DNA from: Symbiodinium natans
Lineage: Eukaryota > Sar > Dinophyceae > Suessiales > Symbiodiniaceae
DNA: 64,000 nucleotides
Assembly (NCBI GenBank): GCA_905221605.1
Contig: CAJNDS010002835.1
Location: forward strand, 1 to 64,000
Reading direction: 5' to 3'
Shown: one piece after another, positions 31,613 to 64,000 of the stretch
Position numbering within the stretch: the first letter of the stretch is position 1
Layout: every line of letters starts with the position of its first letter
Position numbers and translations under genes: made by a program
Notes under the pieces: model-generated
What the model saw: the letters and a program-made list of their open reading frames with translations, nothing else
Told to the model about the DNA's origin: nothing
Databases searched by the model: none

Positions 31613-31664
31613 GAGTGGAGTGATAGGATGTCAGAGACATGCCCACACCCTCCACCTTCTCCAG

Positions 31665-32087
31665 GCCTTGTGGCTCCCCCTAGGCAGGCAACCGTCACAC
31701 TGGGCTCACTGTGCCCGGCGCCACCACCGCCACCAGCGCCTGCGGCACCCGCACCCCCACCCTCAGGTTTCAGCGGAGTCTTTAAGTCAGGCTCCACCGT
31801 GCCAGCTGCCAAGGCTTCGCCAAAGCAAGAGGCTGCCCAGAGTGGAGGGGGCTTGAAGCACGTGTACTTCGACTTCGACCAGACCATCTCCAAGATCCAC
31901 GTCTTCAAGCAGCTCGCTGGCTGGGAGCCGGGCGTCGACGCGCGGCACGCGCTGTCCGAGCGCGGGCAGATCCACCGACTGGAGATGCTGAATGCGGCAC
32001 AGTACGCCTACCAGGGCAGCACAGGCACCGTGGTGCCGTGCGCCGCAGGAACACAGGGGGCCTCTTGGACAGCTTGCGCTTTGGGAG
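31665..32087 (+). CDS. HAD polyprotein exon 1: linker + N-half of HAD 1
   Basis: The first visible module. It opens after a pyrimidine-rich CCAG (31661-31664), in the same phase as every later exon. An ATG at 31628 in the same frame is an alternative start. It encodes a proline-rich linker (PPPPPAPAAPAPPPSGFSG), then motif I (YFDFDQTISK) and the cap region up to TACALGG. It lacks the preceding C-half, so it is the true left end of the array. Distinctive residue: Arg in GVDARHAL, where all others have Pro. Confidence 0.75.
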
Positions 32088-32343
32088 GACTGCTTGCGTA
32101 TGGAGCTGCGAGAGGTTTGTTTAGATGTTCGGCAGCCTGTTGAGAGCCTTCTTCGCAGCAGCTATAAACGGCCTGCTGCCGACTCGGCCATGAATTGCAT
32201 CGCCTTTACAGCTCTGTTTGCAATGTGGTGTAGGGTGCAACTGTCTGCGAGTATGTAGTTTCGTTGCTCCATAATTTTTTCCTAAACCCTCTCCCGAATC
32301 GACCTCTGAACACAGGGCCCGACCAAATGTGAGATGCTTGCAG
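32088..32343 (+). other. array introns 1-2, first class
   Basis: This intron and 33292-33548 are near identical (256 and 257 bp). They begin GACTGCTTGCGTATGG and end AATGTGAGATGCTTGCAG, and include CTAAACCCTCTCCCG. The donor is GA. Both belong to a recent tandem duplication of the unit. Confidence 0.85.
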
Positions 32344-33291
32344 GACCTGAGCGTGTGGGGCAGCTGCGCAGCTTCTTCGCGAGCATGAAGGCTTCCGGCA
32401 CGAAGCTGAGCATCATCACCAAGGGCAACGTGGGTGCCTGCCGATATCTGCTGGAGAACGAAGGGCTGCTGCAGTTCTTCGAGCAGGTCTTCGGCATGCT
32501 TGGCCAGTTCTACGGTGAGTCCGACTTCGACCGCGCCAACCCTGAGCCATCTCCTCTGGAAGGCAGCGTTGACTGCGAGCTGCGCGAGTCTAAGGCCAAC
32601 CTCATCCGCAACTTGATGTCTCGAGCGTCTTTGGGCGTCGACGAGGCGTGCCTGGTTGAGGACGACGCCCAGGAGATTGCATCCGTGCAGGGCATCTGCC
32701 GCAGCGTCTTCGTGGCTGAGAGGCGTGGGATGACCGAGAGCGAGATGGATGAGCTGAGACGCCTTGCAGGTGCGAGAGCTTCAGAGGCTGCGGACGCCAA
32801 AGCAGAGGCCAAAGCCTTCAGCAAAGTGGCGCCGAAGGCAGCGCTGATAGCTAAGCCGCAAGCTGCTCCCCCGCCACCTCCGCCAGATGGCTTCAGTGGA
32901 GTCTGCAAGGCTGGAGGAAAGAGCGTTCCACCCGGCAAGGGGCCTGTGGCACCCGCGCCCCCGCCCTCAGGCTTCAGCGGAGTCTTTAAGTCAGGCTCCA
33001 CCGTGCCAGCTGCCAAGGCTTCGCCAAAGCAAGAGGCTGCCCAGAGTGGAGGGGGCTTGAAGCACGTGTACTTCGACTTCGACCAGACCATCTCCAAGAT
33101 CCACGTCTTCAAGCAGCTCGCTGGCTGGGAGCCGGGCGTCGACGCGCCGCACGCGCTGTCCGAGCGCGGGCAGATCCACCGACTGAAGATGCTGAATGCG
33201 GCACAGTACGCCTACCAGGGAAGCACAGGCACCGTGGTGCCGTGCGCCGCAGGAACACAGGGGGCCTCTTGGACAGCTTGCGCTTTGGGAG
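32344..33291 (+). CDS. HAD polyprotein exon 2 (948 bp)
   Basis: Module anatomy, which holds for all internal exons: start GPERVGQLRSFF; HAD motif II LSIITKGN; motif III lysine in ESKANLIRNL; motif IV LVEDDAQEI; then linker type A with two copies of PPP(D/S)GFSGV(C/F)K; then the next domain's motif I DFDQT (33075-33089), cap type A (NAAQYAYQGSTG) and TACALGG. The conserved Asp, Thr, Lys and Asp-Asp are those HAD phosphatases use for the phospho-Asp mechanism. The substrate is unknown. Specific to this copy: KASGTKL and ADAKAEAK. The 5' intron (256 bp) and 3' intron (257 bp) are near identical. Confidence 0.9.
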
Positions 33292-33548
33292 GACTGCTTG
33301 CGTATGGAGCTGCGAGAGGTCTGTTTAGATGTTCGGCAGCCTGTTGAGAGCCTTCTTCGCAGCAGCTATAAACGGCCTGCTGCCGACTCGACCATGAATT
33401 GCATCGCCTTTACAGTTCTGTTTGCAATGTGGTGTAGGGTGCAACTGTCTGCGAGTATGTAGTTTCGTTGCTCCATAATTTTTTTCCTAAACCCTCTCCC
33501 GAATCGACCTCTGAACACAGGGCCCGACCAAATGTGAGATGCTTGCAG

Positions 33549-34496
33549 GACCTGAGCGTGTGGGGCAGCTGCGCAGCTTCTTCGCGAGCATGAAGGCTTC
33601 CGGCACGAAGCTGAGCATCATCACCAAGGGCAACGTGGGTGCCTGCCGATATCTGCTGGAGAACGAAGGGCTGCTGCAGTTCTTCGAGCAGGTCTTCGGC
33701 ATGCTTGGCCAGTTCTACGGTGAGTCCGACTTCGACCGCGCCAACCCTGAGCCATCTCCTCTGGAAGGCAGCGTTGACTGCGAGCTGCGCGAGTCTAAGG
33801 CCAACCTCATCCGCAACTTGATGTCTCGAGCGTCTTTGGGCGTCGACGAGGCGTGCCTGGTTGAGGACGACGCCCAGGAGATTGCATCCGTGCAGGGCAT
33901 CTGCCGCAGCGTCTTCGTGGCTGAGAGGCGTGGGATGACCGAGAGCGAGATGGATGAGCTGAGACGCCTTGCAGGTGCGAGAGCTTCAGAGGCTGCGGAG
34001 GCCAAAGCAGAGGCCAAAGCCTTCAGCAAAGTGGCGCCGAAGGCAGCGCTGATAGCTAAGCCGCAAGCTGCTCCCCCGCCACCTCCGCCAGATGGCTTCA
34101 GTGGCGTCTGCAAGGCTGGAGGAAAGAGCGTTCCACCCGGCAAGGGGCCTGCGGCACCCGCACCCCCGCCCTCAGGCTTCAGCGGAGTCTTTAAGTCAGG
34201 CTCCACCGTGCCAGCTGCCAAGGCTTCGCCAAAGCAAGAGGCTGCCCAGAGTGGAGGGGGCTTGAAGCACGTGTACTTCGACTTTGACCAGACCATCTCC
34301 AAGATCCACGTCTTCAAGCAGCTCGCTGGCTGGGAGCCGGGCGTCGACGCGCCGCACGCGCTGTCGGAGCGCGGGCAGATCCACCGACTGAAGATGCTGA
34401 ATGCGGCACAGTACGCCTACCAGGGAAGCACAGGCACCGTGGTGCCGTGCGCCGCAGGAACACAGGGGGCCTCTTGGACAGCTTGCGCTTTGGGAG
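33549..34496 (+). CDS. HAD polyprotein exon 3 (948 bp)
   Basis: Linker type A (AEAKAEAK, GPAAPAPPP), cap type A, KASGTKL variant. All HAD motifs are intact. It differs from exon 2 by only a few codons, consistent with duplication of a 1,205-bp unit that included the intron. The following intron switches to a different, 389-bp sequence, marking a change of duplicated block. Confidence 0.88.
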
Positions 34497-34885
34497 GACC
34501 GCAAACTGTTTGCATAGCTGGGAGTGCAGTGTAGATGTTCGGCGGCTTGGTGCAAGTCTGGCGAGAGCTTTCCTTGTAGCAGCTCTCTGCGGACGCCCAC
34601 AAATTCTACAGTATAGGCAGCCTGCTGAATCTGCTCGCCTTGTATGGTTGTGTTCACGTGGCCTGGTGGCCTGTGGTGTAAAGTCTGTGAGTATGCAGGT
34701 ATTTTGTAGCGCGTTAGATTCCTCCATCTGCTGCTCATTGCCGAGTAAATGCCCTGGCTTCAAAGCACGGGCCTCTGAAGTAGATTGCTATATACTGCTA
34801 TGAATGTAAATGGGTCTGACCTTGACCCGCAACATGCTCTATCCTCTCTAGCAGACTCTATCACAGAGATGAGAGACGTTTGCAG
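34497..34885 (+). other. array introns 3-4, second class
   Basis: This intron and 35834-36222 are 389 bp each and look identical. The tail (CTCTAGCAGACTCTATCACA then GAGATGAGAGACGTTTGCAG) is the one kept, with variation, by introns 6-11, 13 and 15, so it probably holds the branch/acceptor signals. Confidence 0.85.
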
Positions 34886-35833
34886 GACCTGAGCGTGTGG
34901 GGCAGCTGCGCAGCTTCTTCGCGAGCATGAAGGCTTCCGGCACGAAGCTGAGCATCATCACCAAGGGCAACGTGGGTGCCTGCCGATATCTGCTGGAGAA
35001 CGAAGGGCTGCTGCAGTTCTTCGAGCAGGTCTTCGGCATGCTTGGCCAGTTCTACGGTGAGTCCGACTTCGACCGCGCCAACCCTGAGCCGTCTCCGCTG
35101 GAAGGCAGCGTTGACTGCGAGCTGCGCGAGTCTAAGGCCAACCTCATCCGCAACTTGATGTCTCGAGCGTCTTTGGGCGTCGACGAGGCGTGCCTGGTTG
35201 AGGACGACGCCCAGGAGATTGCATCCGTGCAGGGCATCTGCCGCAGCGTCTTCGTGGCTGAGAGGCGTGGGATGACCGAGAGCGAGATGGATGAGCTGAG
35301 ACGCCTTGCAGGTGCGAGAGCTTCAGAGGCTGCGGACGCCAAAGCAGAGGCCAAAGCCTTCAGCAAAGTGGCGCCGAAGGCAGCGCTGATAGCTAAGCCG
35401 CAAGCTGCTCCCCCGCCACCTCCGCCAGATGGCTTCAGTGGCGTCTGCAAGGCTGGAGGAAAGAGCGTTCCACCCGGCAAGGGGCCTGTGGCACCCGCGC
35501 CCCCGCCCTCAGGCTTCAGCGGAGTCTTTAAGTCAGGCTCCACCGTGCCAGCTGCCAAGGCTTCGCCAAAGCAAGAGGCTGCCCAGAGTGGAGGGGGCTT
35601 GAAGCACGTGTACTTCGACTTTGACCAGACCATCTCCAAGATCCACGTCTTCAAGCAGCTCGCTGGCTGGGAGCCGGGCGTCGACGCGCCGCACGCGCTG
35701 TCGGAGCGCGGGCAGATCCACCGACTGAAGATGCTGAATGCGGCACAGTACGCCTACCAGGGAAGCACAGGCACCGTGGTGCCGTGCGCCGCAGGAACAC
35801 AGGGGGCCTCTTGGACAGCTTGCGCTTTGGGAG
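34886..35833 (+). CDS. HAD polyprotein exon 4 (948 bp)
   Basis: Linker type A with ADAKAEAK and GPVAPAPPP, as in exon 2; KASGTKL. Flanked on both sides by the same 389-bp intron, giving a 1,337-bp tandem period. HAD motifs are intact. Confidence 0.88.
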
Positions 35834-36222: not shown

Positions 36223-37170
36223 GACCTGAGCGTGTGGGGCAGCTGCGCAGCTTCTTCGCGAGCATGAAGGCTTCCGGCACGAAGCTGAGCATCATCACCA
36301 AGGGCAACGTGGGTGCCTGCCGATATCTGCTGGAGAACGAAGGGCTGCTGCAGTTCTTCGAGCAGGTCTTCGGCATGCTTGGCCAGTTCTACGGTGAGTC
36401 CGACTTCGACCGCGCCAACCCTGAGCCGTCTCCGCTGGAAGGCAGCGTTGACTGCGAGCTGCGCGAGTCTAAGGCCAACCTCATCCGCAACTTGATGTCT
36501 CGAGCGTCTTTGGGCGTCGACGAGGCGTGCCTGGTTGAGGACGACGCCCAGGAGATTGCATCCGTGCAGGGCATCTGCCGCAGCGTCTTCGTGGCTGAGA
36601 GGCGTGGGATGACCGAGAGCGAGATGGATGAGCTGAGACGCCTTGCAGGTGCGAGAGCTTCAGAGGCTGCGGAGGCCAAAGCAGAGGCCAAAGCCTTCAG
36701 CAAAGTGGCGCCGAAGGCAGCGCTGATAGCTAAGCCGCAAGCTGCTCCCCCGCCACCTCCGCCAGATGGCTTCAGTGGCGTCTGCAAGGCTGGAGGAAAG
36801 AGCGTTCCACCCGGCAAGGGGCCTGCGGCACCCGCACCCCCGCCCTCAGGTTTCAGCGGAGTCTTTAAGTCAGGCTCCACCGTGCCAGCTGCCAAGGCTT
36901 CGCCAAAGCAAGAGGCTGCCCAGAGTGGAGGGGGCTTGAAGCACGTGTACTTCGACTTCGACCAGACCATCTCCAAGATCCACGTCTTCAAGCAGCTCGC
37001 TGGCTGGGAGCCGGGCGTCGACGCACCGCACGCGCTGTCCGAGCGCGGGCAGATCCACCGACTGGAGATGCTGAATGCGGCACAGTGCGCCTACCAGGCA
37101 AGCACAGGCACCGTGGTGCCGTGCGCCGCAGGAACACAGGGGGCCTCTTGGACAGCTTGCGCTTTGGGAG
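36223..37170 (+). CDS. HAD polyprotein exon 5 (948 bp)
   Basis: Last copy with KASGTKL. The cap reads NAAQCAYQASTG (Cys and Ala changes) and RLEML as in exon 1. HAD motifs are intact. The next intron is 2,087 bp because of a 1.7-kb insertion with a target-site duplication. Confidence 0.88.
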
Positions 37171-37205
37171 GACTGCAAACTGTTTGCATAGCTGGGAGTT
37201 CCAAG

Positions 37206-38899
37206 AGGCAGACCGGTCGCTTGTGCCCGCTTTAGGCTGGTCAGTTGTGCCCGCCTTACGCGGGTCACTTGTGCCCGCGTACGTGCCTCAAATCACAGCA
37301 GGGCCGCACTTTGGGCCACCTCCCGCCAAAACGCAGACCTGTCACTTGTGCCCACCTTTCGGTCTTAAAATATGGCAGGGCCACAGGATGAGGTGTTTGT
37401 CGGTTGAAAAGTCGCGTCCCTGCCACATCCGGCAGGCTCTCTGCCCCTGCCACCTGTCACCCCATTCAAGTGGACGCCAAGCACTCCGGCTGACCGTGCA
37501 GGGCGCATCGGGCAACAACAGTCGTTTTTTTACCCCTCCAAACCCGAACCCTGGACCCAGAAACAACTGACCTGAGGCCTTGCGTGGAAGGCTCCCCTTG
37601 GGTCAGATGTCTGTAGACGCCCAGCCCGCCCAAGCCCCCCCTCGCTCCCTTCCCCCTCCACCCCCTCCCAAGCACTGCGGCTGACCGTGCAGGGCTCCCC
37701 CTGCGGCTGACCGTGCAGGGCGCGTTGGTCAACAACAGTCGTTTTTGCCCCTCCAAACCCCCCCCCATCCCCCCTCCCCTCACCCGTTTCCAGGGCGGGT
37801 GACTGGGTGTGGTGTGTGGCGTCAAACAAGCTTATTCTTATCCCCCCCCCCCTTCCCCCCCCTCCCCCCTCCCCCCGTTGCAGGGCGGGTGACTGGATGC
37901 GGTTGTGTTGAGCGCGTCAAACAAGCTTATTCTTGTCCCCCCCCCTCCACCCCCCTCCCCCCTCCCTCACCCGTTAGGACTGGATGTGGTTGACTGGATG
38001 TGGTTGTGTTGCCCCCCCCCCCCTCCCCTCACCCGTTTCCAGGGCGGGTGACTGGGTGTGGTGTGTGGCGTCAAACAAGCTTATTCTTATCCCCCCCCCC
38101 CCCCCCCCCCCTCCCCCCGTTGCAGGGCGGGTGACTGGATGCGGTTGTGTTGAGCGCGTCAAACAAGCTTATTCTTGTCCCCCCCCTCCACCCCCCTCCC
38201 CCCTCCCTCACCCGTTAGGACTGGATGTGGTTGACTGGATGTGGTTGTGTTGCCCCCCCTCCGCCCTCCCCTCACCCGTTTCCAGGGCGGGTGACTGGGT
38301 GTGGTGTGTGGCATGAAACAAGGTTATTCTTATCCCCCCCCCCCTCCCCACCTGCACCCCCCCCCACCCCCCCCCGTTGGCAGGGCGGGTGACTGGATGC
38401 GGTTGTGTTGAGCGCGTCAAACAAGCTTATTCTTGTCCCCCCCCCCCCCCCCCCTCCCCCCCCCTCCCCCCTCCTCACCCGTTGGGACTGGATGTGGTTG
38501 ACTGGATGTGGTTGTGTTGCCCCCCCCAGGGCGGGTGACCGGCGTCAAACAAGCTTATTCTTATCCCCCCCCCCTCCCCTCCCCCCCGCCCGTTGCAGGG
38601 CGGGTGACTGGATGTTATTCTTGTCCCCCCCCTCCCCTCCCCCCCCCTCCTCCTCACCCGTTGGGACTGGATGTGGTTGACTGGATGTGGTTGTGTTGAC
38701 CGCCTCAAACAAGCTTATTCTTATCCCCCCCCCTCCCCACCCCCCCACCCCCCCAGAAACGTGGGCACAAGTGACGGGGTACGTGGGCACAAGTGACGGG
38801 GTACGTGGGCACAAGTGACGGGGTACGTGGGCGCAAGTGACCCGAAACCGCGTGGGCACAAGTGACCGCGATCGCGTGGGCACAAGTGACGGGGCTGCC
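37206..38899. mobile_element. non-autonomous DNA transposon-like insertion, 1.7 kb
   Basis: Flanked by the 8-bp direct repeat GTTCCAAG (37198-37205 and 38900-38907). The ends are inverted: GGCAGACCGGTCGCTTGTG on the left and the complement of GGCAGCCCCGTCACTTGTG on the right. Subterminal GGTCACTTGTGCCC-like units repeat at both ends in opposite orientation (several at 37205-37280; about six as GGGCACAAGTGAC at 38762-38890). It has no coding frame. An 8-bp duplication and subterminal repeats fit hAT-like or similar elements; the superfamily is inferred. Confidence 0.65.
37781..38740. repeat. ~245-bp tandem repeat inside the insertion
   Basis: CACCCGTTTCCAGGGCGGGT recurs at 37781, 38030 and 38273 (spacing 249 and 243), each unit also containing two CAAACAAGCTTATTCTT phrases and poly-C runs. 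A fourth unit from about 38525 is truncated. Confidence 0.85.
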
Positions 38900-39257
38900 G
38901 TTCCAAGATGTTCGGCGGCTTGGTGCAAGCCTGGCGAGAGCTTTCCTTGTAGCAGCTCTCTGCGGACGCCCACAAATTCTACAGTATAGGCAGCCTGCTG
39001 AATTTGCTCGCCTTGTATGGTTGTGTTCACGTGGCCTGGTGGCCTGTGGTGTAAGTCTGTGAGTATGCAGGTATTTTGTAGCGCGTTAGATTCCTCCATC
39101 TGCTGCTCATTGCCGAGTAAATGCCCTGGCTTCGAAGCACGGGCCTCTGAAGTAGATTGCTATATACTGCTATGAATGTAAAGGGGTCTGACCTTGACCC
39201 GCAACATGCTCTATCCTCTCTAGCAGACTCTATCACAAAGATGAGAGACGTTTCCAG

Positions 39258-40205
39258 GACCTGAGCGTGTGGGGCAGCTGCGCAGCTTCTTCGCGAGCAT
39301 GAAGGCTGCCGGCACGAAGCTGAGCATCATCACCAAGGGCAACGTGGGTGCCTGCCGATATCTGCTGGAGAACGAAGGGCTGCTGCAGTTCTTCGAGCAG
39401 GTCTTCGGCATGCTTGGCCAGTTCTACGGTGAGTCCGACTTCGACCGCGCCAACCCTGAGCCGTCTCCGCTGGAAGGCAGCGTTGACTGCGAGCTGCGCG
39501 AGTCTAAGGCCAACCTCATCCGCAACTTGATGTCTCGAGCGTCTTTGGGCGTCGACGAGGCGTGCCTGGTTGAGGACGACGCCCAGGAGATTGCATCCGT
39601 GCAGGGCATCTGCCGCAGCGTCTTCGTGGCTGAGAGGCGTGGGATGACCGAGAGCAAGATGGATGAGCTGAGACGCCTTGCAGGTGCGAGAGCTTCAGAG
39701 GCTGCGGAGGCCAAAGCAGAGGCCAAAGCCTTCAGCAAAGTGGCGCCGAAGGCAGCGCTGATAGCTAAGCCGCAAGCCGCTCCCCCGCCACCTCCGCCGG
39801 ATGGCTTCAGTGGCGTCTGCAAGGCTGGAGGAAAGAGCGTTCCACCCGGCAAGGGGCCTGCGGCACCCGCACCCCCGCCCTCAGGCTTCAGCGGAGTCTT
39901 TAAGTCAGGCTCCACCGTGCCAGCTGCCAAGGCTTCGCCAAAGCAAGAGGCTGCCCAGAGTGGAGAGGGCTTGAAGCACGTGTACTTCGACTTCGACCAG
40001 ACCATCTCCAAGATCCACGTCTTCAAGCAGCTCGCTGGCTGGGAGCCGGGCGTCGACGCGCCGCACGCGCTGTCCGAGCGCGGGCAGATCCACCGACTGA
40101 AGATGCTGAATGCGGCACAGTGCGCCTACCAGGGAAGCACAGGCACCGTGGTACCGTGCGCCGCAGGAACACAGGGGGCCTCTTGGACAGCTTGCGCTTT
40201 GGGAG
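39258..40205 (+). CDS. HAD polyprotein exon 6 (948 bp)
   Basis: From here on the copies read KAAGTKL. Specific changes: TESKMDEL (Glu to Lys) after motif IV, QSGEGLK before motif I and QCAYQGS in the cap. The acceptor is TTTCCAG rather than TTTGCAG. Motifs are intact. Its 3' intron (400 bp) is shared with the one after exon 15. Confidence 0.88.
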
Positions 40206-40605: not shown

Positions 40606-41553
40606 GACCTGAGCGTGTGGGGCAGCTGCGCAGCTTCTTCGCGAGCATGAAGGCTGCCGGCACGAAGCTGAGCATCATCACCAAGGGCAACGTGGGTGCC
40701 TGCCGATATCTGCTGGAGAACGAAGGGCTGCTGCAGTTCTTCGAGCAGGTCTTCGGCATGCTTGGCCAGTTCTACGGTGAGTCCGACTTCGACCGCGCCA
40801 ACCCTGAGCCGTCTCCGCTGGAAGGCAGCGTTGACTGCGAGCTGCGCGAGTCTAAGGCCAACCTCATCCGCAACTTGATGTCTCGAGCGTCTTTGGGCGT
40901 CGACGAGGCGTGCCTGGTTGAGGACGACGCCCAGGAGATTGCATCCGTGCAGGGCATCTGCCGCAGCGTCTTCGTGGCTGAGAGGCGTGGGGTGACCGAG
41001 AGCGAGATGGATGAGCTGAGACGCCTTGCAGGTGCGAGAGCTTCAGAGGCTGCGGAGGCCAAAGCAGAGGCCAAAGCCTTCAGCAAAGTGGCGCCGAAGG
41101 CAGCGCTGATAGCTAAGCCGCAAGCCGCTCCCCCGCCACCTCCGCCAGATGGCTTCAGTGGCATCTGCAAGGTTGGAGGAAAGAGCGTTCCACCCGGCAA
41201 GGGGCCTGCGGCACCCGCGCCGCCGCCCTCAGGTTTCAGCGGAGTCTTTACGTCAGGCTCCACCGTGCCAGCTGCCAAGGCTTCGCCAAAGCAAGAGGCT
41301 GCCCAGAGTGGAGAGGGCTTGAAGCACGTGTACTTCGACTTCGACCAGACCATCTCCAAGATCCACGTCTTCAAGCAGCTCGCTGGCTGGGAGCCGGGAG
41401 TCGACGCGCCGCACGCGCTGTCCGAGCGCGGGCAGATCCACCGACTGAAGATGCTGAATGCGGCACAGTACGCCTACCAGGGAAGCACAGGCACCGTGGT
41501 GCCGTGCGCCGCAGGAACACAGGGGGCCTCTTGGACAGCTTGCGCTTTGGGAG
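40606..41553 (+). CDS. HAD polyprotein exon 7 (948 bp)
   Basis: Specific changes: RRGVTESE (Met to Val), linker GICKVGG and FTSGSTV, QSGEGLK. Motifs are intact. The 349-bp 3' intron matches the one after exon 13. Confidence 0.88.
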
Positions 41554-41902: not shown

Positions 41903-42850
41903 GACCTGAGCGTGTGGGGCAGCTGCGCAGCTTCTTCGCGAGCATGAAGGCTGCCGGCACGAAGCTGAGCATCATCACCAAGGGCAACGTGGGTGCCTGC
42001 CGATATCTGCTGGAGAACGAAGGGCTGCTGCAGTTCTTCGAGCAGGTCTTCGGCATGCTTGGCCAGTTCTACGGTGAGTCCGACTTCGACCGCGCCAACC
42101 CTGAGCCATCTCCTCTGGAAGGCAGCGTTGACTGCGAGCTGCGCGAGTCTAAGGCCAACCTCATCCGCAACTTGATGTCTCGAGCGTCTTTGGGCGTCGA
42201 CGAGGCGTGCCTGGTTGAGGACGACGCCCAGGAGATAGCATCCGTGCAGGGCATCTGCCGCAGCGTCTTCGTGGCTGAGAGGCGTGGGATGACCGAGAGC
42301 GAGATGGATGAGCTGAGACGCCTTGCAGGTGCGAGAGCTTCAGAGGCTGCGGAGGCCAAAGCAGAGGCCAAAGCCTTCAGCAAAGTGGCGCCGAAGGCAG
42401 CGCTGATAGCTAAGCCGCAAGCTGCTCCCCCGCCACCTCCGCCGGATGGCTTCAGTGGCGTCTGCAAGGCTGGAGGAAACAGCGTTCCACCCGGCAAGGG
42501 GCCTGCGGCACCCGCACCCCCGCCCTCAGGCTTCAGCGGAGTCTTTAAGTCAGGCTCCACCGTGCCAGCTGCCAAGGCTTCGCCAAAGCAAGAGGCTGCC
42601 CAGAGTGGAGGGGGCTTGAAGCACGTGTACTTCGACTTTGACCAGACCATCTCCAAGATCCACGTCTTCAAGCAGCTCGCTGGCTGGGAGCCGGGCGTCG
42701 ACGCGCCGCACGCGCTGTCCGAGCGCGGGCAGATCCACCGACTGAAGATGCTGAATGCGGCACAGTACGCCTACCAGGGAAGCACAGGCACCGTGGTGCC
42801 GTGCGCCGCAGGAACACAGGGGGCCTCTTGGACAGCTTGCGCTTTGGGAG
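41903..42850 (+). CDS. HAD polyprotein exon 8 (948 bp)
   Basis: The linker has GGNSVPPGK (Lys to Asn), a change shared only with exon 16. Motifs are intact. The 388-bp 3' intron is repeated after exon 9. Confidence 0.88.
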
Positions 42851-43238: not shown

Positions 43239-44186
43239 GACCTGAGCGTGTGGGGCAGCTGCGCAGCTTCTTCGCGAGCATGAAGGCTGCCGGCACGAAG
43301 CTGAGCATCATCACCAAGGGCAACGTGGGTGCCTGCCGATATCTGCTGGAGAACGAAGGGCTGCTGCAGTTTTTCGAGCAGGCCTTCGGCATGCTTGGCC
43401 AGTTCTACGGTGAGTCCGACTTCGACCGCGCCAACCCTGAGCCATCTCCTCTGGAAGGCAGCGTTGACTGCGAGCTGCGCGAGTCTAAGGCCAACCTCAT
43501 CCGCAACTTGATGTCTCGAGCGTCTTTGGGCGTCGACGAGGCGTGCCTGGTCGAGGACGACGCCCAGGAGATTGCATCCGTGCAGGGCATCTGCCGCAGC
43601 GTCTTCGTGGCTGAGAGGCGTGGGATGACCGAGAGCGAGATGGATGAGCTGAGACGCCTTGCAGGTGCGAGAGCTTCAGAGGCTGCGGAGGCCAAAGCAG
43701 AGGCCAAAGCCTTCAGCAAAGTGGCGCCGAAGGCAGCGCTGATAGCTAAGCCGCAAGCTGCTCCCCCGCCACCTCCGCCAGATGGCTTCAGTGGCATCTG
43801 CAAGGTTGGAGGAAAGAGCGTTCCACCCGGCAAGGGGCCTGCGGCACCCGCGCCGCCGCCCTCAGGTTTCAGCGGAGTCTTTACGTCAGGCTCCACCGTG
43901 CCAGCTGCCAAGGCTTCGCCAAAGCAAGAGGCTGCCCAGAGTGGAGGGGGCTTGAAGCACGTGTACTTCGACTTTGACCAGACCATCTCCAAGATCCACG
44001 TCTTCAAGCAGCTCGCTGGCTGGGAGCCGGGCGTCGACGCGCCGCACGCGCTGTCCGAGCGCGGGCAGATCCACCGACTGAAGATGCTGAATGCGGCACA
44101 GTACGCCTACCAGGGAAGCACAGGCACAGTGGTGCCGTGCGCCGCAGGAACACAGGGGGCCTCTTGGACAGCTTGCGCTTTGGGAG
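43239..44186 (+). CDS. HAD polyprotein exon 9 (948 bp)
   Basis: FEQAFGML (Val to Ala) is unique. The linker is GICKVGG/FTSGSTV as in exon 7, so exons 7 and 9 share a conversion tract that exon 8 lacks. Motifs are intact. Confidence 0.88.
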
Positions 44187-52709: not shown

Positions 52710-53657
52710 GACCTGAGCGTGTGGGGCAGCTGCGCAGCTTCTTCGCGAGCATGAAGGCTGCCGGCACGAAGCTGAGCATCATCACCAAGGGCAACGTGGG
52801 TGCCTGCCGATATCTGCTGGAGAACGAAGGGCTGCTGCAGTTCTTCGAGCAGGTCTTCGGCATGCTTGGCCAGTTCTACGGTGAGTCCGACTTCGACCGC
52901 GCCAACCCTGAGCCGTCTCCGCTGGAAGGCAGCGCTGACTGCGAGCTGCGCGAGTCTAAGGCCAACCTCATCCGCAACTTGATGTCTCGAGCGTCTTTGG
53001 GCGTCGACGAGGCGTGCCTGGTTGAGGACGACGCCCAGGAGATAGCATCCGTGCAGGGCATCTGCCGCAGCGTCTTCGTGGCTGAGAGGCGTGGGATGAC
53101 CGAGAGCGAGATGGATGAGCTGAGACGCCTTGCAGGTGCGAGAGCTTCAGAGGCTGCGGAGGCCAAAGCAGAGGCCAAAGCCTTCAGCAAAGTGGCGCCG
53201 AAGGCAGCGCTGATAGCTAAGCCGCAAGCTGCTCCCCCGCCACCTCCGCCGGATGGCTTCAGTGGCGTCTGCAAGGCTGGAGGAAACAGCGTTCCACCCG
53301 GCAAGGGGCCTGCGGCACCCGCACCCCCGCCCTCAGGCTTCAGCGGAGTCTTTAAGTCAGGCTCCACCGTGCCAGCTGCCAAGGCTTCGCCAAAGCAAGA
53401 GGCTGCCCAGAGTGGAGGGGGCTTGAAGCACGTGTACTTCGACTTCGACCAGACCATCTCCAAGATCCACGTCTTCAAGCAGCTCGCTGGCTGGGAGCCG
53501 GGCGTCGACGCGCCGCACGCGCTGTCCGAGCGCGGGCAGATCCACCGACTGAAGATGCTGAATGCGGCACAGTGCGCCTACCAGGGAAGCACAGGCACCG
53601 TGGTGCCGTGCGCCGCAGGAACACAGGGGGCCTCTTGGACAGCTTGCGCGTTGGGAG
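52710..53657 (+). CDS. HAD polyprotein exon 16 (948 bp)
   Basis: Last copy with full-length type-A linker; GGNSVPPGK as in exon 8; QCAYQGS cap. The 315-bp 3' intron is a shortened relative of the one after exon 14. Motifs are intact. Confidence 0.88.
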
Positions 53658-53972: not shown

Positions 53973-54881
53973 GACCTGAGCGTGTGGGGCAGCTGCGCTT
54001 CTTCTTCGCCAGCATGAAGGCTGCCGGCACGAAGCTGAGCATCATCACCAAGGGCAACGTGGGTGCCTGCCGATATCTGCTGGAGAACGAAGGGCTGCTG
54101 CAGTTCTTCGAGCAGGTCTTCGGCATGCTTGGCCAGTTCTACGGTGAGTCCGACTTCGACCGCGCCAACCCTGAGCCGTCTCCGCTGGAAGGCAGCGCTG
54201 ACTGCGAGCTGCGCGAGTCCAAGGCCAACCTCATCCGCAACTTGATGTCTCGAGCGTCTTTGGGCATCGGCGAGGCGTGCCTGGTTGAGGACGACGCCCA
54301 GGAGATAGCATCCGTACAGGGCATCTGCCGCAGCGTCTTCGTGGCCGAGAGGCGTGGGATGACCGAGAGCGAGATGGACGAGCTGCGGTGCCTGGCAGGA
54401 TCTCCACACGAACCAGCCATGGAAGCCTCCACGTCCCCTGCGAGATGTGAAGAGGACGTACCCGGAGGTGATGGCGGCTCCCGCAAAGAGCATGAAGCCA
54501 CTGTTGGGAAGCAGGTTATGCTTTCCAAATCCGTGCTCCCCGTTGCGGAGACAGAGCCCAAGGCCAAGGCGGCACACGCTCTGGACGGCACCTTGGGAGC
54601 CCATAAGGCTGAGGACAGTCTCCCACCGCAAGAACCAAAGAGTGTGAAGCACGTGTACTTCGACTTCGATCAGACCATCTCCAAGATTCACGTCTTCAAG
54701 CAGCTCGCTGGGTGGGAGCCGGGCGTGCGCCCGCCTCATGCTTTGTCGGAGCGCGGGCAGATCCACCGATTGAAGATGCTGAACGAGGCTGGCCCTGCCT
54801 ACGTCCACGACGGGAACGGCGTGCAGGTGGTGCAGGGCTCGACAGGCTCCGCTGCTTCGTGGACGGCCTGCTCGCTGGGAG
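53973..54881 (+). CDS. HAD polyprotein exon 17 (909 bp, linker B)
   Basis: The C-half still resembles exon 15 (LRFFFASM), but after DELRCLAG the linker changes completely: acidic and polar (SPHEPAMEASTSPARCEEDV, later AHALDGTLGAHKAEDSLPPQ) with no proline runs. The cap is type B (NEAGPAYVHDGNGVQVVQGS). GIGEACL replaces GVDEACL before motif IV. HAD motifs are intact. This exon is the crossover point between the two halves of the array. Confidence 0.88.
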
Positions 54882-55069: not shown

Positions 55070-55978
55070 GACCCGAGCGTGTGGAGCAGCTTCGCAGCTT
55101 CTTCGCCAGCCTGAAGGCTGCCGGCACGAAGCTGAGCATCATCACCAAGGGCAACGTGGGTGCCTGCCGATATCTGCTGGAGAACGAAGGGCTGCTGCAG
55201 TTCTTCGAGCAGGTCTTCGGCATGCTTGGCCAGTTCTACGGTGAGTCCGACTTCGACCGCGCCAACCCTGAGCCGTCTCCGCTGGAAGGCAGCGCTGACT
55301 GCGAGCTGCGCGAGTCCAAGGCCAACCTCATCCGCAACTTGATGTCTCGAGCGTCTTTGGGCATCGGCGAGGCGTGCCTGGTTGAGGACGACGCCCAGGA
55401 GATAGCATCCGTACAGGGCATCTGCCGCAGCGTCTTCGTGGCCGAGAGGCGTGGGATGACCGAGAGCGAGATGGACGAGCTGCGGTGCCTGGCAGGATCT
55501 CCACACGAACCAGCCATGGAAGCCTCCACGTCCCCTGCGAGATGTGAAGAGGACGTACCCGGAGGTGATGGCGGCTCCCGCAAAGAGCATGAAGCCACTG
55601 TTGGGAAGCAGGTTATGCTTTCCAAATCCGTGCTCCCCGTTGCGGAGACAGAGCCCAAGGCCAAGGCGGCACACGCTCTGGACGGCACCTTGGGAGCCCA
55701 TAAGGCTGAGGACAGTCTCCCACCGCAAGAACCAAAGAGTGTGAAGCACGTGTACTTCGACTTCGATCAGACCATCTCCAAGATTCACGTCTTCAAGCAG
55801 CTCGCTGGGTGGGAGCCGGGCGTGCGCCCGCCTCATGCTTTGTCGGAGCGCGGGCAGATCCACCGATTGAAGATGCTGAACGAGGCTGGCCCTGCCTACG
55901 TCCACGACGGGAACGGCGTGCAGGTGGTGCAGGGCTCGACAGGCTCCGCTGCTTCGTGGACGGCCTGCTCGCTGGGAG
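55070..55978 (+). CDS. HAD polyprotein exon 18 (909 bp, linker B)
   Basis: Starts GPERVEQLRSFFASLKAAG (Glu, and Met to Leu), which marks the right half of the array. GIGEACL; cap B. Bounded by two copies of the 188-bp intron; unit period 1,097 bp. Motifs are intact. Confidence 0.88.
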
Positions 55979-56166: not shown

Positions 56167-57075
56167 GACCCGAGCGTGTGGAGCAGCTTCGCAGCTTCTT
56201 CGCCAGCCTGAAGGCTGCCGGCACGAAGCTGAGCATCATCACCAAGGGCAACGTGGGTGCCTGCCGATATCTGCTGGAGAACGAAGGGCTGCTGCAGTTC
56301 TTCGAGCAGGTCTTCGGCATGCTTGGCCAGTTCTACGGTGAGTCCGACTTCGACCGCGCCAACCCTGAGCCGTCTCCGCTGGAAGGCAGCGCTGACTGCG
56401 AGCTGCGCGAGTCCAAGGCCAACCTCATCCGCAACTTGATGTCTCGAGCGTCTTTGGGCGTCGGCGAGGCGTGCCTGGTTGAGGACGACGCCCAGGAGAT
56501 AGCATCCGTACAGGGCATCTGCCGCAGCGTCTTCGTGGCCGAGAGGCGTGGGATGACCGAGAGCGAGATGGACGAGCTGCGGTGCCTGGCAGGATCTCCA
56601 CACGAACCAGCCATGGAAGCCTCCACGTCCCCTGCGAGATGTGAAGAGGACGTACCCGGAGGTGATGGCGGCTCCCGCAAAGAGCATGAAGCCACTGTTG
56701 GGAAGCAGGTTATGCTTTCCAAATCCGTGCTCCCCGTTGCGGAGACAGAGCCCAAGGCCAAGGCGGCACACGCTCTGGACGGCACCTTGGGAGCCCATAA
56801 GGCTGAGGACAGTCTCCCACCGCAAGAACCAAAGAGTGTGAAGCACGTGTACTTCGACTTCGATCAGACCATCTCCAAGATTCACGTCTTCAAGCAGCTC
56901 GCTGGGTGGGAGCCGGGCGTGCGCCCGCCTCATGCTTTGTCGGAGCGCGGGCAGATCCACCGATTGAAGATGCTGAACGAGGCTGGCCCTGCCTACGTCC
57001 ACGACGGGAACGGCGTGCAGGTGGTGCAGGGCTCGACAGGCTCCGCTGCTTCGTGGACGGCCTGCTCGCTGGGAG
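56167..57075 (+). CDS. HAD polyprotein exon 19 (909 bp, linker B)
   Basis: Almost the same as exon 18 at base level; the visible coding change is GVGEACL for GIGEACL. Linker B, cap B, motifs intact. Confidence 0.88.
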
Positions 57076-57263: not shown

Positions 57264-58172
57264 GACCCGAGCGTGTGGAGCAGCTTCGCAGCTTCTTCGC
57301 CAGCCTGAAGGCTGCCGGCACGAAGCTGAGCATCATCACCAAGGGCAACGTGGGTGCCTGCCGATATCTGCTGGAGAACGAAGGGCTGCTGCAGTTCTTC
57401 GAGCAGGTCTTCGGCATGCTTGGCCAGTTCTACGGTGAGTCCGACTTCGACCGCGCCAACCCTGAGCCGTCTCCGCTGGAAGGCAGCGCTGACTGCGAGC
57501 TGCGCGAGTCCAAGGCCAACCTCATCCGCAACTTGATGTCTCGAGCGTCTTTGGGCATCGGCGAGGCGTGCCTGGTTGAGGACGACGCCCAGGAGATAGC
57601 ATCCGTACAGGGCATCTGCCGCAGCGTCTTCGTGGCCGAGAGGCGTGGGATGACCGAGAGCGAGATGGACGAGCTGCGGTGCCTGGCAGGATCTCCACAC
57701 GAACCAGCCATGGAAGCCTCCACGTCCCCTGCGAGATGTGAAGAGGACGTACCCGGAGGTGATGGCGGCTCCCGCAAAGAGCATGAAGCCACTGTTGGGA
57801 AGCAGGTTATGCTTTCCAAATCCGTGCTCCCCGTTGCGGAGACAGAGCCCAAGGCCAAGGCGGCACACGCTCTGGACGGCACCTTGGGAGCCCATAAGGC
57901 TGAGGACAGTCTCCCACCGCAAGAACCAAAGAGTGTGAAGCACGTGTACTTCGACTTCGATCAGACCATCTCCAAGATTCACGTCTTCAAGCAGCTCGCT
58001 GGGTGGGAGCCGGGCGTGCGCCCGCCTCATGCTTTGTCGGAGCGCGGGCAGATCCACCGATTGAAGATGCTGAACGAGGCTGGCCCTGCCTACGTCCACG
58101 ACGGGAACGGCGTGCAGGTGGTGCAGGGCTCGACAGGCTCCGCTGCTTCGTGGACGGCCTGCTCGCTGGGAG
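57264..58172 (+). CDS. HAD polyprotein exon 20 (909 bp, linker B)
   Basis: Linker B and cap B with GIGEACL; near-identical to exon 18. Last of the complete linker-B exons in this run. Motifs intact. Confidence 0.88.
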
Positions 58173-58360: not shown

Positions 58361-59299
58361 GACCCGAGCGTGTGGAGCAGCTTCGCAGCTTCTTCGCCAG
58401 CCTGAAGGCTGCCGGCACGAAGCTGAGCATCATCACCAAGGGCAACGTGGGTGCCTGCCGATATCTGCTGGAGAACGAAGGGCTGCTGCAGTTCTTCGAG
58501 CAGGTCTTCGGCATGCTTGGCCAGTTCTACGGTGAGTCCGACTTCGACCGCGCCAGCCCTGAGCCGTCTCCGCTGGAAGGCAGCGCTGACTGCGAGCTGC
58601 GCGAGTCCAAGGCCAACCTCATCCGCAACTTGATGTCTCGAGCGTCTTTGGGCGTCGGCGAGGCGTGCCTGGTTGAGGACGACGCCCAGGAGATAGCATC
58701 CGTACAGGGCATCTGCCGCAGCGTCTTCGTGGCCGAGAGGCGTGGGATGACCGAGAGCGAGATGGATGAGCTGAGACGCCTTGCCGGTGCAACAGCTTCA
58801 GAGGCGGCGGAGGCCAAAGCCTTCAGCAAAGTGGCGCCGAAGGCAGCGCTGACAGCGAAGCCGCAAGCTGCTCCCCCGCCACCTCCGCCAGATGGCTTCA
58901 GTGGCGTCTGCAAGGTTGGAGGAAAGAGCGTTCCACCCGGCAAGGGGCCTGCGGCACCCGCGCCGCCGCCCTCAGGTTTCAGCGGAGTCTTTAAGTCAGG
59001 CTCCACCGTGCCAGCTGCCAAGGCTTCGCCAAAGCAAGAGGCTGCCCAGAGTGGAGAGGGCTTGAAGCACGTGTACTTCGACTTCGACCAGACCATCTCC
59101 AAGATCCACGTCTTCAAGCAGCTCGCTGGCTGGGAGCCGGGCGTCGACGCGCCGCACGCGCTGTCCGAGCGCGGGCAGATCCACCGACTGAAGATGCTGA
59201 ACGAGGCTGGCCCCGCCTACGTCTACGACGGGAACGGCGTGCAGGAGGTGCAGGGCTCGACAGGCTCCACTGCTTCGTGGACGGCCTGCTCGCTGGGAG
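58361..59299 (+). CDS. HAD polyprotein exon 21 (939 bp, hybrid)
   Basis: A mosaic: the right-half start (VEQLRSFFASLK) and cap B (NEAGPAYVYDGNGVQEVQ) enclose a type-A proline linker that lacks four codons (ASEAAEAKAFSK). Specific: DRASPEPS (Asn to Ser). Motifs intact. Confidence 0.88.
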
Positions 59300-59487
59300 G
59301 ACCGAGAGTCTATGACCGTCCATGCAACGCAGGTACTGTTCAGGCTGCAACCCACGTTGTTTGCTGTCCGTCGTTTGTGAGGGCTTTGGGTCAGAGTCCA
59401 CACAGCGTGCTCAAACAAAAACATCTGTCTTCGTTGTCTGGGCTGACGTGTTGCCATTCTTTATGTTTCATGTATGCTCTCTGCGAG

Positions 59488-60426
59488 GACCCGAGCGTGT
59501 GGAGCAGCTGCGCAGCTTCTTCGCGAGCATGAAGGCTGCCGGCACGAAGCTGAGCATCATCACCAAGGGCAACGTGGGTGCCTGCCGATATCTGCTGGAG
59601 AACGAAGGGCTGCTGCAGTTCTTCGAGCAGGTCTTCGGCATGCTTGGCCAGTTCTACGGTGAGTCCGACTTCGACCGCGCCAACCCTGAGCCGTCTCCGC
59701 TGGAAGGCAGCGCTGACTGCGAGCTGCGCGAGTCCAAGGCCAACCTCATCCGCAACTTGATGTCTCGAGCGTCTTTGGGCGTCGACGAGGCGTGCCTGGT
59801 TGAGGACGACGCCCAGGAGATAGCATCCGTACAGGGCATCTGCCGCAGCGTCTTCGTGGCCGAGAGGCGTGGGATGACCGAGAGCGAGATGGATGAGCTG
59901 AGACGCCTTGCCGGTGCAACAGCTTCAGAGGCGGCGGAGGCCAAAGCCTTCAGCAAAGTGGCGCCGAAGGCAGCGCTGACAGCGAAGCCGCAAGCTGCTC
60001 CCCCGCCACCTCCGCCAGATGGCTTCAGTGGCGTCTGCAAGGTTGGAGGAAAGAGCGTTCCACCCGGCAAGGGGCCTGCGGCACCCGCGCCGCCGCCCTC
60101 AGGTTTCAGCGGAGTCTTTAAGTCAGGCTCCACCGTGCCAGCTGCCAAGGCTTCGCCAAAGCAAGAGGCTGCCCAGAGTGGAGAGGGCTTGAAGCACGTG
60201 TACTTCGACTTCGACCAGACCGTCTCCAAGATCCACGTCTTCAAGCAGCTCGCTGGCTGGGAGCCGGGCGTCGACGCGCCGCACGCGCTGTCCGAGCGCG
60301 GGCAGATCCACCGACTGAAGATGCTGAACGAGGCTGGTCCTGCCTACGTCTACGACGGAAACGGCGTGCAGGTGGTGCATGGCTCGACAGGCTCCACTGC
60401 TTCGTGGACGGCCTGCTCGCTGGGAG
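59488..60426 (+). CDS. HAD polyprotein exon 22 (939 bp, hybrid)
   Basis: Short type-A linker with cap B. It has SMKAAG and GVDEACL, left-half features, and DFDQTVSK (Ile to Val) just after motif I. The cap has VVHGSTGS. Motifs intact. Confidence 0.88.
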
Positions 60427-60614
60427 GACCGAGAGTCTATGACCGTCCATGCAACGCAGGTACTGTTCAGGCTGCAACCCACGTTGTTTGCTGTCCGTCG
60501 TTTGTGAGGGCTTTGGGTCAGAGTCCACACAGCGTGCTCAAACAAAAACATCTGTCTTCGTTGTCTGGGCTGACGTGTTGCCATTCTTTATGTTTCATGT
60601 ATGCTCTCTGCGAG

Positions 60615-61553
60615 GACCCGAGCGTGTGGAGCAGCTTCGCAGCTTCTTCGCCAGCCTGAAGGCTGCCGGCACGAAGCTGAGCATCATCACCAAGGGCAAC
60701 GTGGGTGCCTGCCGATATCTGCTGGAGAACGAAGGGCTGCTGCAGTTCTTCGAGCAGGTCTTCGGCATGCTTGGCCAGTTCTACGGTGAGTCCGACTTCG
60801 ACCGCGCCAACCCTGAGCCGTCTCCGCTGGAAGGCAGCGCTGACTGCGAGCTGCGCGAGTCCAAGGCCAACCTCATCCGCAACTTGATGTCTCGAGCGTC
60901 TTTGGGCGTCGGCGAGGCGTGCCTGGTTGAGGACGACGCCCAGGAGATAGCATCCGTACAGGGCATCTGCCGCAGCGTCTTCGTGGCCGAGAGGCGTGGG
61001 ATGACCGAGAGCGAGATGGATGAGCTGAGACGCCTTGCCGGTGCAACAGCTTCAGAGGCGGCGGAGGCCAAAGCCTTCAGCAAAGTGGCGCCGAAGGCAG
61101 CGCTGACAGCGAAGCCGCAAGCTGCTCCCCCGCCACCTCCGCCAGATGGCTTCAGTGGCGTCTGCAAGGTTGGAGGAAAGAGCGTTCCACCCGGCAAGGG
61201 GCCTGCGGCACCCGCGCCGCCGCCCTCAGGTTTCAGCGGAGTCTTTAAGTCAGGCTCCACCGTGCCAGCTGCCAAGGCTTCGCCAAAGCAAGAGGCTGCC
61301 CAGAGTGGAGAGGGCTTGAAGCACGTGTACTTCGACTTCGACCAGACCGTCTCCAAGATCCACGTCTTCAAGCAGCTCGCTGGCTGGGAGCCGGGCGTCG
61401 ACGCGCCGCACGCGCTGTCCGAGCGGGGGCAGATCCACCGACTGAAGATGCTGAACGAGGCTGGCCCTGCCTACGTCTACGACGGGAACGGCGTGCAGGT
61501 GGTGCATGGCTCGACAGGCTCCACTGCTTCGTGGACGGCCTGCTCGCTGGGAG
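60615..61553 (+). CDS. HAD polyprotein exon 23 (939 bp, hybrid)
   Basis: Like exon 22 but with SLKAAG and GVGEACL. DFDQTVSK is retained. Unit period 1,127 bp with the 188-bp intron on both sides. Motifs intact. Confidence 0.88.
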
Positions 61554-61741
61554 GACCGAGAGTCTATGACCGTCCATGCAACGCAGGTACTGTTCAGGCT
61601 GCAACCCACGTTGTTTGCTGTCCGTCGTTTGTGAGGGCTTTGGGTCAGAGTCCACACAGCGTGCTCAAACAAAAACATCTGTCTTCGTTGTCTGGGCTGA
61701 CGTGTTGCCATTCTTTATGTTTCATGTATGCTCTCTGCGAG

Positions 61742-62677
61742 GACCCGAGCGTGTGGAGCAGCTTCGCAGCTTCTTCGCCAGCCTGAAGGCTGCCGGCACG
61801 AAGCTGAGCATCATCACCAAGGGCAACGTGGGTGCCTGCCGATATCTGCTGGAGAACGAAGGGCTGCTGCAGTTCTTCGAGCAGGTCTTCGGCATGCTTG
61901 GCCAGTTCTACGGTGAGTCCGACTTCGACCGCGCCAACCCTGAGCCGTCTCCGCTGGAAGGCAGCGCTGACTGCGAGCTGCGCGAGTCCAAGGCCAACCT
62001 CATCCGCAACTTGATGTCTCGAGCGTCTTTGGGCGTCGACGAGGCGTGCCTGGTTGAGGACGACGCCCAGGAGATAGCATCCGTACAGGGCATCTGCCGC
62101 AGCGTCTTCGTGGCCGAGAGGCGTGGGATGACCGAGAGCGAGATGGATGAGCTGAGACGCCTTGCCGGTGCAACAGCTTCAGAGGCGGCGGAGGCCAAAG
62201 CCTTCAGCAAAGTGGCGCCGAAGGCAGCGCTGATAGCTAAGCCGCAAGCTGCTCCCCCGCCACCTCCGCCGGATGGCTTCAGTGGCGTCTGCAAGGTTGG
62301 AGGAAAGAGCGTTCCACCCGGCAAGGGGCCTGCGGCACCCGCGCCGCCGCCCTCAGGTTTCAGCGGAGTCTTTAAGTCAGGCTCCACCGTGCCAGCTGCC
62401 AAGGCTTCGCCAAAGCAAGAGGCTGCCCAGAGTGGAGAGGGCTTGAAGCACGTGTACTTCGACTTCGACCAGACCGTCTCCAAGATCCACGTCTTCAAGC
62501 AGCTCGCTGGCTGGGAGCCGGGCGTCGACGCGCCGCACGCGCTGTCCGAGCGCGGGCAGATCCACCGACTGAAGATGCTGAATGCGGCACAGTACGCCTA
62601 CCAGGGAAGCACAGGCACTGTGGTGCTGTGCGCCACCGGAACACAGGGGGCCTCTTGGACAGCTTGCGCTTTGGGAG
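61742..62677 (+). CDS. HAD polyprotein exon 24 (936 bp)
   Basis: Short type-A linker (ALIAKPQ as in the left half), DFDQTVSK, then the cap reverts to type A (NAAQYAYQGSTGTVVLCATG, with Leu and Thr changes). The 188-bp intron ends here; the next intron is a unique 641-bp sequence. Motifs intact. Confidence 0.88.
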
Positions 62678-63318
62678 GACCGGTCACGGTTAAGTTTTCT
62701 TTCTGAGGCACGGTGCATTCTTTCACAAGTTCTGCAGCGTTTCGCCACTGTCGTCAACAACTTGCGACATCTTGCTACTCACTAGAGCAGATTCTAAGAC
62801 GTACTCCAAGTACTCCCCACTCCCGAAAAGCTTGGCTGTGCGACAGGCACAGCACAGCAAAAGAGTATTAACTTGGACTTGACCTGAACATCACAACATC
62901 GATGACTGACCTCTTGCCCTGAAGGGAGCTTAAGCTTGGGAGTGAGAGAGAACCAAACTTTCCGGATCCAATGAAGGGGCCTCCTCCGCTTGGGCGGAGT
63001 TCGGCCTCCCCGTCCCAATCCCCACAGCACCACCTATACCACCTCAATGTCTTTCATGAGTTCAGCTGAGATGTTTTCGAAAGGGACAGTATTGGATCGC
63101 ATTAAATACCGCCAGAAAGGATCCATTTGCGCATTCTTGAGCCCAGAACCTGAGACAGAATTTCTCTCCGGAAAGATTTACAAAACCCGGCTCAGAACCT
63201 TTTACTTCGGTGGGCCAAGCTTTGGCCACGATTGAGAGTTGCGAGGCTTCAGCAGAACTGCAACAGTCTTCACAGTATGTGACAGCACTTGCAGATAACT
63301 TTTGCAACCGACCACAAG
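62678..63318 (+). other. array intron 24, unique 641 bp
   Basis: A unique interior between a GA donor (GACCGGTCACGG) and ACCACAAG. No repeats shared with other introns were noticed, and no convincing exon inside; the short frames at 62990-63235 lack coding character. Confidence 0.65.
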
Positions 63319-64000
63319 GACCCGAGCGCGTGAGGCGGCTTCACAGCTTCTTCGCCAGCCTGAAGGCTGCCGGCACGAAGCTGAGCATCATCACCAAGGG
63401 CAACGTGGGTGCCTGCCGATATCTCCTGGAGAACGAAGGGCTGCTGCAGTTCTTCGAGCAGGTCTTCGGCATGCTTGGCCAGTTCTACGGTGAGTCCGAC
63501 TTCGACCGCGCCAACCCTGAGCCGTCTCCGCTGGAAGGCAGCGCTGACTGCGAGCTGTGCGAGTCCAAGGCCAACCTCATCCGCAACTTGATGTCTCGAG
63601 CGTCTTTGGGCGTCGACGAGGCGTGCCTGGTTGAGGACGACGCCCAGGAGATAGCATCCGTACAGGGCATCTGCCGCAGCGTCTTCGTGGCCGAGAGGCG
63701 TGGGATGACCGAGAGCGAGATGGACGAGCTGCGGTGCCTGGCAGGATCTCCACACGAACCAGCCATGGAAGCCTCCACGTCCCCTGTCACCTCAGCACAC
63801 ACTTCTTGCGAACCCGATGTTCCTGAAGGCGACGAGAGCCCTCGCAAAGAGACGGAATCCTTCGAAGCTGTTGTGAAGGTTGTGCCGGTTCCTGCACCGC
63901 TGGCGCTTTCCATGGTCCCCGTGGAGACACGGGCATCACAGGTTCTGCAGGCCTCACAAGACTCAGAAGCAGAGTCCTTCGAAGCCATGGCTCGGCTTGC
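63319..64000 (+). CDS. HAD polyprotein exon 25 (runs off window)
   Basis: Enters after ACCACAAG. Starts GPERVRRLHSFFASLK (unique) and has ELCESKANL (Arg to Cys) next to the motif III lysine, which is itself kept. The linker begins like type B (CLAGSPHEPAMEASTSP) but diverges into a third form (SCEPDVPEGDESPRKETES onward). The frame is open to the window edge, so the array continues to the right. Confidence 0.85.

Follow-up and report, generated by a model that had tools for sequence, protein, structure and literature searches.

Within a 64,000-nucleotide stretch of Symbiodinium natans DNA (contig CAJNDS010002835.1, positions 1 to 64,000; hereafter the window), we found what is very probably a single dinoflagellate (Symbiodiniaceae-type) gene for a chain of at least 24 HAD phosphatases. 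As read from the sequence, this gene has a single start and no fewer than 25 exons; its one open frame runs for at least 7,583 codons and covers at least 24 complete HAD domains with intact motifs.

The gene structure was re-derived by script, and all positions refer to the forward strand of the window. Exon borders were located by pattern (donor [TC]TGGGAG|GAC, acceptor GACC[CT]GAGCG[TC]G), which makes their sameness partly a matter of construction, and an AGGAC repeat at both intron ends leaves the cut site uncertain by a few bases without affecting the joined sequence. The start codon is an ATG at 31628, with the nearest in-frame stop (TAG at 31610) 18 bases upstream; the preliminary description of this DNA had placed the gene start at 31665, which is corrected here. 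Its 25 consecutive exons, with 23 complete ones of 948, 909, 939, or 936 bp and phase-1 introns throughout, were all recovered: 25 exons and 24 introns (188–2,087 bp) extend from 31628, and the frame is still open at the window end (64000). The complete internal exons (15 of 948 bp, four of 909 bp, three of 939 bp, and one of 936 bp) are multiples of three without exception, and all 23 are entered and left in phase 1 through nearly identical splice sites. As already proposed in that description, the exon borders fall inside the HAD domain, so that an exon consists of a C-half, a linker, and the next N-half; the introns, which are non-canonical, are situated inside the HAD domains. The individual features are the following:

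31628..32087, plus strand: exon 1, with the start codon, a leader of ~36 residues that by eye is unlike the linkers, one GFSGV motif, and the first HAD N-half
32088..32343, plus strand: intron 1, 256 bp
32344..33291, plus strand: exon 2, 948 bp, with HAD C-half, linker, and next HAD N-half
33549..34496, plus strand: exon 3, 948 bp
34886..35833, plus strand: exon 4, 948 bp
36223..37170, plus strand: exon 5, 948 bp
37171..39257, plus strand: intron 5, 2,087 bp, its length increased by an inserted segment that carries terminal inverted repeats
39258..40205, plus strand: exon 6, 948 bp
40606..41553, plus strand: exon 7, 948 bp
41903..42850, plus strand: exon 8, 948 bp
43239..44186, plus strand: exon 9, 948 bp
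44575..45522, plus strand: exon 10, 948 bp
45869..46816, plus strand: exon 11, 948 bp
47164..48111, plus strand: exon 12, 948 bp
48720..49667, plus strand: exon 13, 948 bp
50017..50964, plus strand: exon 14, 948 bp
51362..52309, plus strand: exon 15, 948 bp
52710..53657, plus strand: exon 16, 948 bp
53973..54881, plus strand: exon 17, 909 bp, with a different linker lacking GFSGV
55070..55978, plus strand: exon 18, 909 bp, same sequence as exon 20
56167..57075, plus strand: exon 19, 909 bp
57264..58172, plus strand: exon 20, 909 bp
58361..59299, plus strand: exon 21, 939 bp, mosaic, with a 948-type linker and a 909-type N-half end
59488..60426, plus strand: exon 22, 939 bp
60615..61553, plus strand: exon 23, 939 bp
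61742..62677, plus strand: exon 24, 936 bp, mosaic, with a 948-type N-half end
63319..64000, plus strand: exon 25, truncated at the window end, with HAD C-half followed by the beginning of a linker or tail of a third type, stop-free

Joined, these exons give a spliced frame of 7,583 codons with no stop and a product of ~798 kDa; the stop-free frame described earlier therefore stands, while its length of about 7,570 codons becomes 7,583 when counted from the ATG at 31628. The other two sense frames of the spliced sequence contain 236 and 224 stops. One antisense frame stays open for 1,457 codons, probably a codon-bias effect.

The same layout could be read as a tandem of separate genes, in which the introns would be intergenic spacers and each exon would give its own mRNA (with a spliced leader at the acceptor), encoding a circularly permuted HAD domain with its stop in the spacer. 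Trans-spliced tandem arrays are common in dinoflagellates (PMC2488372), and in 17 of the 24 introns read-through meets an in-frame stop 9–50 codons into the intron. However, introns 17–23 (188 bp each) contain no in-frame stop, yet are not multiples of three; exon 1 would yield an N-half alone; the first in-frame ATG of exons 2–25 falls within the C-half; and the joined relatives and single-domain open reading frames (ORFs) described below place the N-half directly ahead of the C-half. We consider this reading extremely unlikely, and a separate gene per unit was rejected since none of the 23 linkers contains an in-frame stop. A dinoflagellate spliced-leader sequence was searched for in the window and not found.

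Neighboring units of one type are 98.1–99.9% alike (95.4% for exons 23 vs 24), and introns 1 and 2 are 98.4% identical. Such likeness between units is a hard case for assemblers, and the unit number could have been inflated or units misjoined. Against an artefact of this kind, there are 22 distinct sequences among the 23 internal exons (exons 18 and 20 being identical), several of the introns, with their wide range of sizes, carry unique sequence, and distinct units occur on other contigs too (for example, five match clusters list a 955,394-bp contig); we regard it as very improbable. Neither the unit nor its introns recur in the first 31.6 kb of the window. One more 939-type exon, P0003, is not found in the window but is listed on a contig of 75,742 bp, the length also given for the window-encoded P0002, P0017, and P0052. 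Because of this additional exon, the array would most simply continue outside the window, giving a chain of more than 24 units.

The preliminary description had found the four HAD motifs kept in nearly every copy; in fact, DFDQT, ITKG, ESKA, and VEDD are intact in all 24 complete domains. A structure model of P0028, a close relative rather than a window unit, adopts the HAD Rossmann-like fold, and its nearest fold match in the PDB is the magnesium-dependent phosphatase MDP-1 (PDB 1u7p, 1u7o, 2wm8). By their motifs and the modeled fold of this relative, the array units are thus assigned to the HAD superfamily phosphatase domains. MDP-1 itself is a single small enzyme, whereas the dinoflagellate domain has a longer stretch separating motifs I and II, and MDP-1 was not among the matches listed by sequence searches of solved structures. 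A profile search of solved structures returned pentatricopeptide-repeat matches (E down to 7.4e-12, profile positions 121–151); we attribute these to a helix pair that matches such repeats by chance. A viral-contig scan with one unit as query recovered no relative.

The linkers between the domains (81–95 residues) are Pro/Ala-rich and of low complexity; one linker peptide reads PPPPPPDGFSGVCK. Among the 15 exons of 948 bp (105 pairs), the ratio of nonsynonymous to synonymous substitution rates (dN/dS) is lowest in the N-half (0.12), intermediate in the C-half (0.28), and highest in the linker (0.42). Between exon types, with the 936-bp exon counted among the 939-bp exons, the domain halves range from 0.15 to 0.39, and the linker gives 0.22 for 948 vs 939 and 0.38 for 909 vs 939 (near saturation); for 948 vs 909 it is saturated and not computable. 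The 52 variable columns of the 948-bp exons are distributed as 9, 13, and 30 over codon positions 1, 2, and 3 (chi-square p 0.0008). Because dN/dS stays below 1 and the variable columns favor codon position 3, the linker is, by the pattern of substitutions, translated in the domain frame and constrained, though less so than the domains. A pseudogene array was rejected on the intact motifs and on dN/dS below 1 wherever computable. The linkers also share a recurrent motif of the PPPPPxGFSGVCK type: 19 of the 23 linkers in the window carry two PPPPP-x-GFSGV-type motifs, and the window contains 39 matches in all, one of them in exon 1.

This constraint bears on a further alternative, in which one pre-mRNA would be alternatively spliced and the interchangeable, symmetric exons would serve as cassettes for proteins with variable and usually few domains. 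The uniform phase and near-identical splice sites of all 23 internal exons make any skip frame-neutral, and exon skipping accounts for 77% of alternative splicing events in one case cited by PMC11453091; constraint across the units, on the other hand, suggests that many or all of them are in use. We find this reading unlikely as the principal account of the locus; it is compatible with, and not exclusive of, the giant chain.

Related sequences carry the same organization. We aligned 31 relatives of the C-half/linker/N-half ORF type, 28 of them outside the contig of the window; organism names given among the matches are Symbiodinium, S. microadriaticum, and Cladocopium goreaui. On the strength of these names, which a minority of the matches carry, an origin outside the dinoflagellates was rejected. 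Across the 28 relatives and one window exon, the two domain halves are more alike (identity 81.2% for the C-half and 78.1% for the N-half) than the linker (50.5%). The motif PPPPP-x-GF[S/T/G]G[I/V] is present in the linkers of 20 of the 28, often twice, and GLSG in three more (P0019–P0021). A loose motif pattern matched 49 of 91 homologues, many of the 91 being fragments or single domains. We did not take cluster sizes (P0030, for example, has 182 members) as a measure of array length, as the numbers of members and contigs are inconsistent with a single contig. Single-domain relatives are present as ORFs labeled complete, and other relatives are fused to different modules: P0086 joins an HAD domain of the array type to a TMEM43-like domain, and P0088 (1,484 aa) contains one inside a P-type cation ATPase, an unusual insertion into another HAD enzyme. 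P0082 (Cladocopium goreaui, 1,087 aa) comprises a C-half and a full HAD domain, after which come a coiled-coil-like region and a zinc finger of RING-like type (scoring below cut-off); its tail perhaps represents the C-terminus of such arrays.

Several relatives contain joined units. Searches with a three-unit query (10 matches) and an eight-unit query (four matches, two in common) yielded 12 distinct matches, both searches having scored only the ~8,000 candidates that share most words. Three units are joined, with the linkers retained, in the ENA-contig ORF P0090 and in the nearly identical gene model P0091 of S. microadriaticum; each of the two shows three LGG-PERV junctions. P0080 has two such junctions, and P0081 and, from another search, P0001 have one each. 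One LGG-PDRV junction each is found in the gene models P0082, P0084, and P0085. The junctions in the joined relatives coincide exactly with the intron positions placed in the window, and the N-half lies directly ahead of the C-half, as in the single-domain ORFs. Since ENA-contig records seem to be mechanical ORFs that run into introns, like P0002 and P0017, the records P0090, P0080, P0081, and P0001 appear to be intronless genomic sequence. Downstream of its units, P0081 continues into a reverse transcriptase (PF00078, precomputed), and P0090 into a region resembling an endonuclease (22.5 bits, slightly under the cut-off). Most simply, the joined copies would represent retrotransposon sequence carrying a copy of a spliced multi-unit mRNA. 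The polyprotein proposed in the preliminary description thus gains support from the open frame, the phase, purifying selection on the linkers, the same ORF type in 28 relatives, and joined sequences of two to three units.

In a C-half tree of 61 distinct sequences (81 before duplicate removal), the window contributes 14 distinct copies, all of which cluster together (100/98), apart from the S. microadriaticum-like and Cladocopium-like copies; from this single group, we conclude that the units underwent recent amplification or homogenization within the lineage of the window. Some units are mosaics: the 939-type exons combine a 948-type linker with a 909-type N-half end and a 909-type intron, and exon 24 reverts. 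Because every internal exon is symmetric, gain or loss of units by recombination or exon skipping would keep the frame, and such frame-neutral exchange fits both the mosaic units and the homogenization.

We propose that splicing at the AGGAC-repeat introns would turn a single pre-mRNA into the message for one chain of MDP-1-like phosphatases, its domains tethered by presumably flexible Pro/Ala-rich linkers, with recombination or exon skipping able to add or drop whole units while the frame stays intact. Less surely, the linker motifs may act as docking sites on a multivalent phosphatase scaffold. Alternatively, the same giant chain might be a classical polyprotein from which cleavage in the linkers releases ~24 separate phosphatases, as has been suggested for RuBisCO II and LHC. 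The dinoflagellate precedents (PMC3747160, PMC4351107), the long low-complexity linkers, and the complete single-domain relatives fit such cutting. The 7,583 residues, however, contain no SPLR motif and no KR or KK pairs (RR occurs 44 times and RK five times; a protease of another kind could still act), a hydrophobic leader was not found (hydropathy over 19 residues peaks at 0.63 within the first 60 windows), and the fusions in P0088 and P0086 also speak against it. We hold a cut chain to be doubtful, and a polyprotein of the plastid type was rejected for want of both leader and SPLR. Given the missing leader and SPLR, the recurrent paired linker motif, and the relatives built as fused modules, our leaning, held at somewhat less than even confidence, is toward a chain that remains whole as a multivalent phosphatase scaffold. 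Slightly more tentative is the fuller picture of an uncut, near-megadalton megaenzyme with at least 24, and probably more, near-identical active sites, paired docking motifs, and a length tuned by gain, loss, or skipping of its interchangeable phase-1 exons; with the same reserve, it may be a repeat-enzyme scaffold, not a precursor of single enzymes.

A number of observations weigh against the giant chain or its persistence. The window ends inside exon 25, before any stop, and the gene end with its stop codon would lie beyond 64000; the polyprotein reading at this locus draws on genomic sequence, with P0090 and P0091 as indirect support for a multi-unit mRNA. The gene models P0091 and P0082 were generated automatically, the third domain of P0090 reads ITKS instead of ITKG, and none of the 12 distinct matches from the two multi-unit searches (~8,000 candidates scored in each) is a transcriptome-source record with two complete joined HAD domains. 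The joined copies could also derive from an older intron-free gene, although the order of parts is the same either way. For the 28 relatives, which are themselves ORFs, an open linker is partly a precondition of detection. The linker motif is missing from four of the 23 window linkers (all four 909-type) and from five of the 28 relatives (P0023–P0026 and P0032). The Pfam HAD_2 score of a window unit is 16.4 bits, below the cut-off of 23.8, which P0090 exceeds (30.2 bits). Finally, RuBisCO and LHC polyproteins of such algae have been proposed to be cut, which counts against an intact chain.

Multi-unit polyproteins are known for dinoflagellate RuBisCO II, LHC, and HSP70 genes (PMC11453091, PMC10666404, PMC3747160, PMC4351107), and a review names LHC, luciferase, and RuBisCO II (PMC11453091). 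Form II RuBisCO genes of Prorocentrum and Symbiodinium (PMC3747160, PMC10666404) resemble the array in being nuclear, with tandem units, stop-free spacers, and grouping of same-species units. They differ in having 3–4 units, a 21-residue spacer, a plastid leader, and gene models up to 5,197 residues, whereas the array has at least 24 units, linkers of 81–95 residues, an intron within each domain, and no hydrophobic leader. The LHC (acpPC) polyproteins of Symbiodinium minutum share with the array multiple units and unit shuffling by duplication or gene conversion; however, their 145 units in 80 loci are membrane proteins, with an SPLR cleavage motif in one group that the array lacks (PMC4351107). 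The HSP70 gene of Prorocentrum cordatum is likewise multi-exon, with several units of a non-plastid protein in one frame, but has four complete units of one exon each and spacer exons, whereas every exon border of the array splits a domain; in the same species, RuBisCO has up to three units and gene models reach 5,197 residues (PMC10666404). No HAD polyprotein in dinoflagellates was among the matches listed by our literature searches. The earlier remark that none of this scale is known holds as regards unit number, although polyproteins of this kind have been described (RuBisCO II, LHC, HSP70): what is new here is the unit number, the enzyme, the linker, and the intron layout, and the principle was already known.

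Other features of the window include an insertion of ~1.7 kb in intron 5 (37207–38899) between inverted copies of a GTCACTTGTGCCC-type repeat, with C-rich tandem repeats within, which looks like a non-autonomous mobile element. A plus-strand ORF at 9831–11279 encodes a clear DUF7869 domain (91.3 bits); the six other long plus-strand ORFs tested between 3256 and 12546 had no Pfam match at E 0.01. Interstitial TTTAGGG/CCCTAAA-like tracts, which resemble plant-type telomere repeats, lie at 12719–13378, 16470–16930, 22652–22789, and 24267–24311, a G-rich run of 168 bases at 22827–22994, and a perfect (AGA)40 tract at 24838–24957.

The dinoflagellate polyproteins that we found described contain only a few units, and most of them are plastid proteins or related to light. 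If the proposed chain is real, the copy number of a whole enzyme could be set inside one protein-coding frame, and the array would offer a clear test case for the fate of such chains, either cleavage or action as multivalent enzymes. Lying beside retrotransposon-like ORFs, the joined copies would then be a natural record of a spliced polyprotein mRNA.

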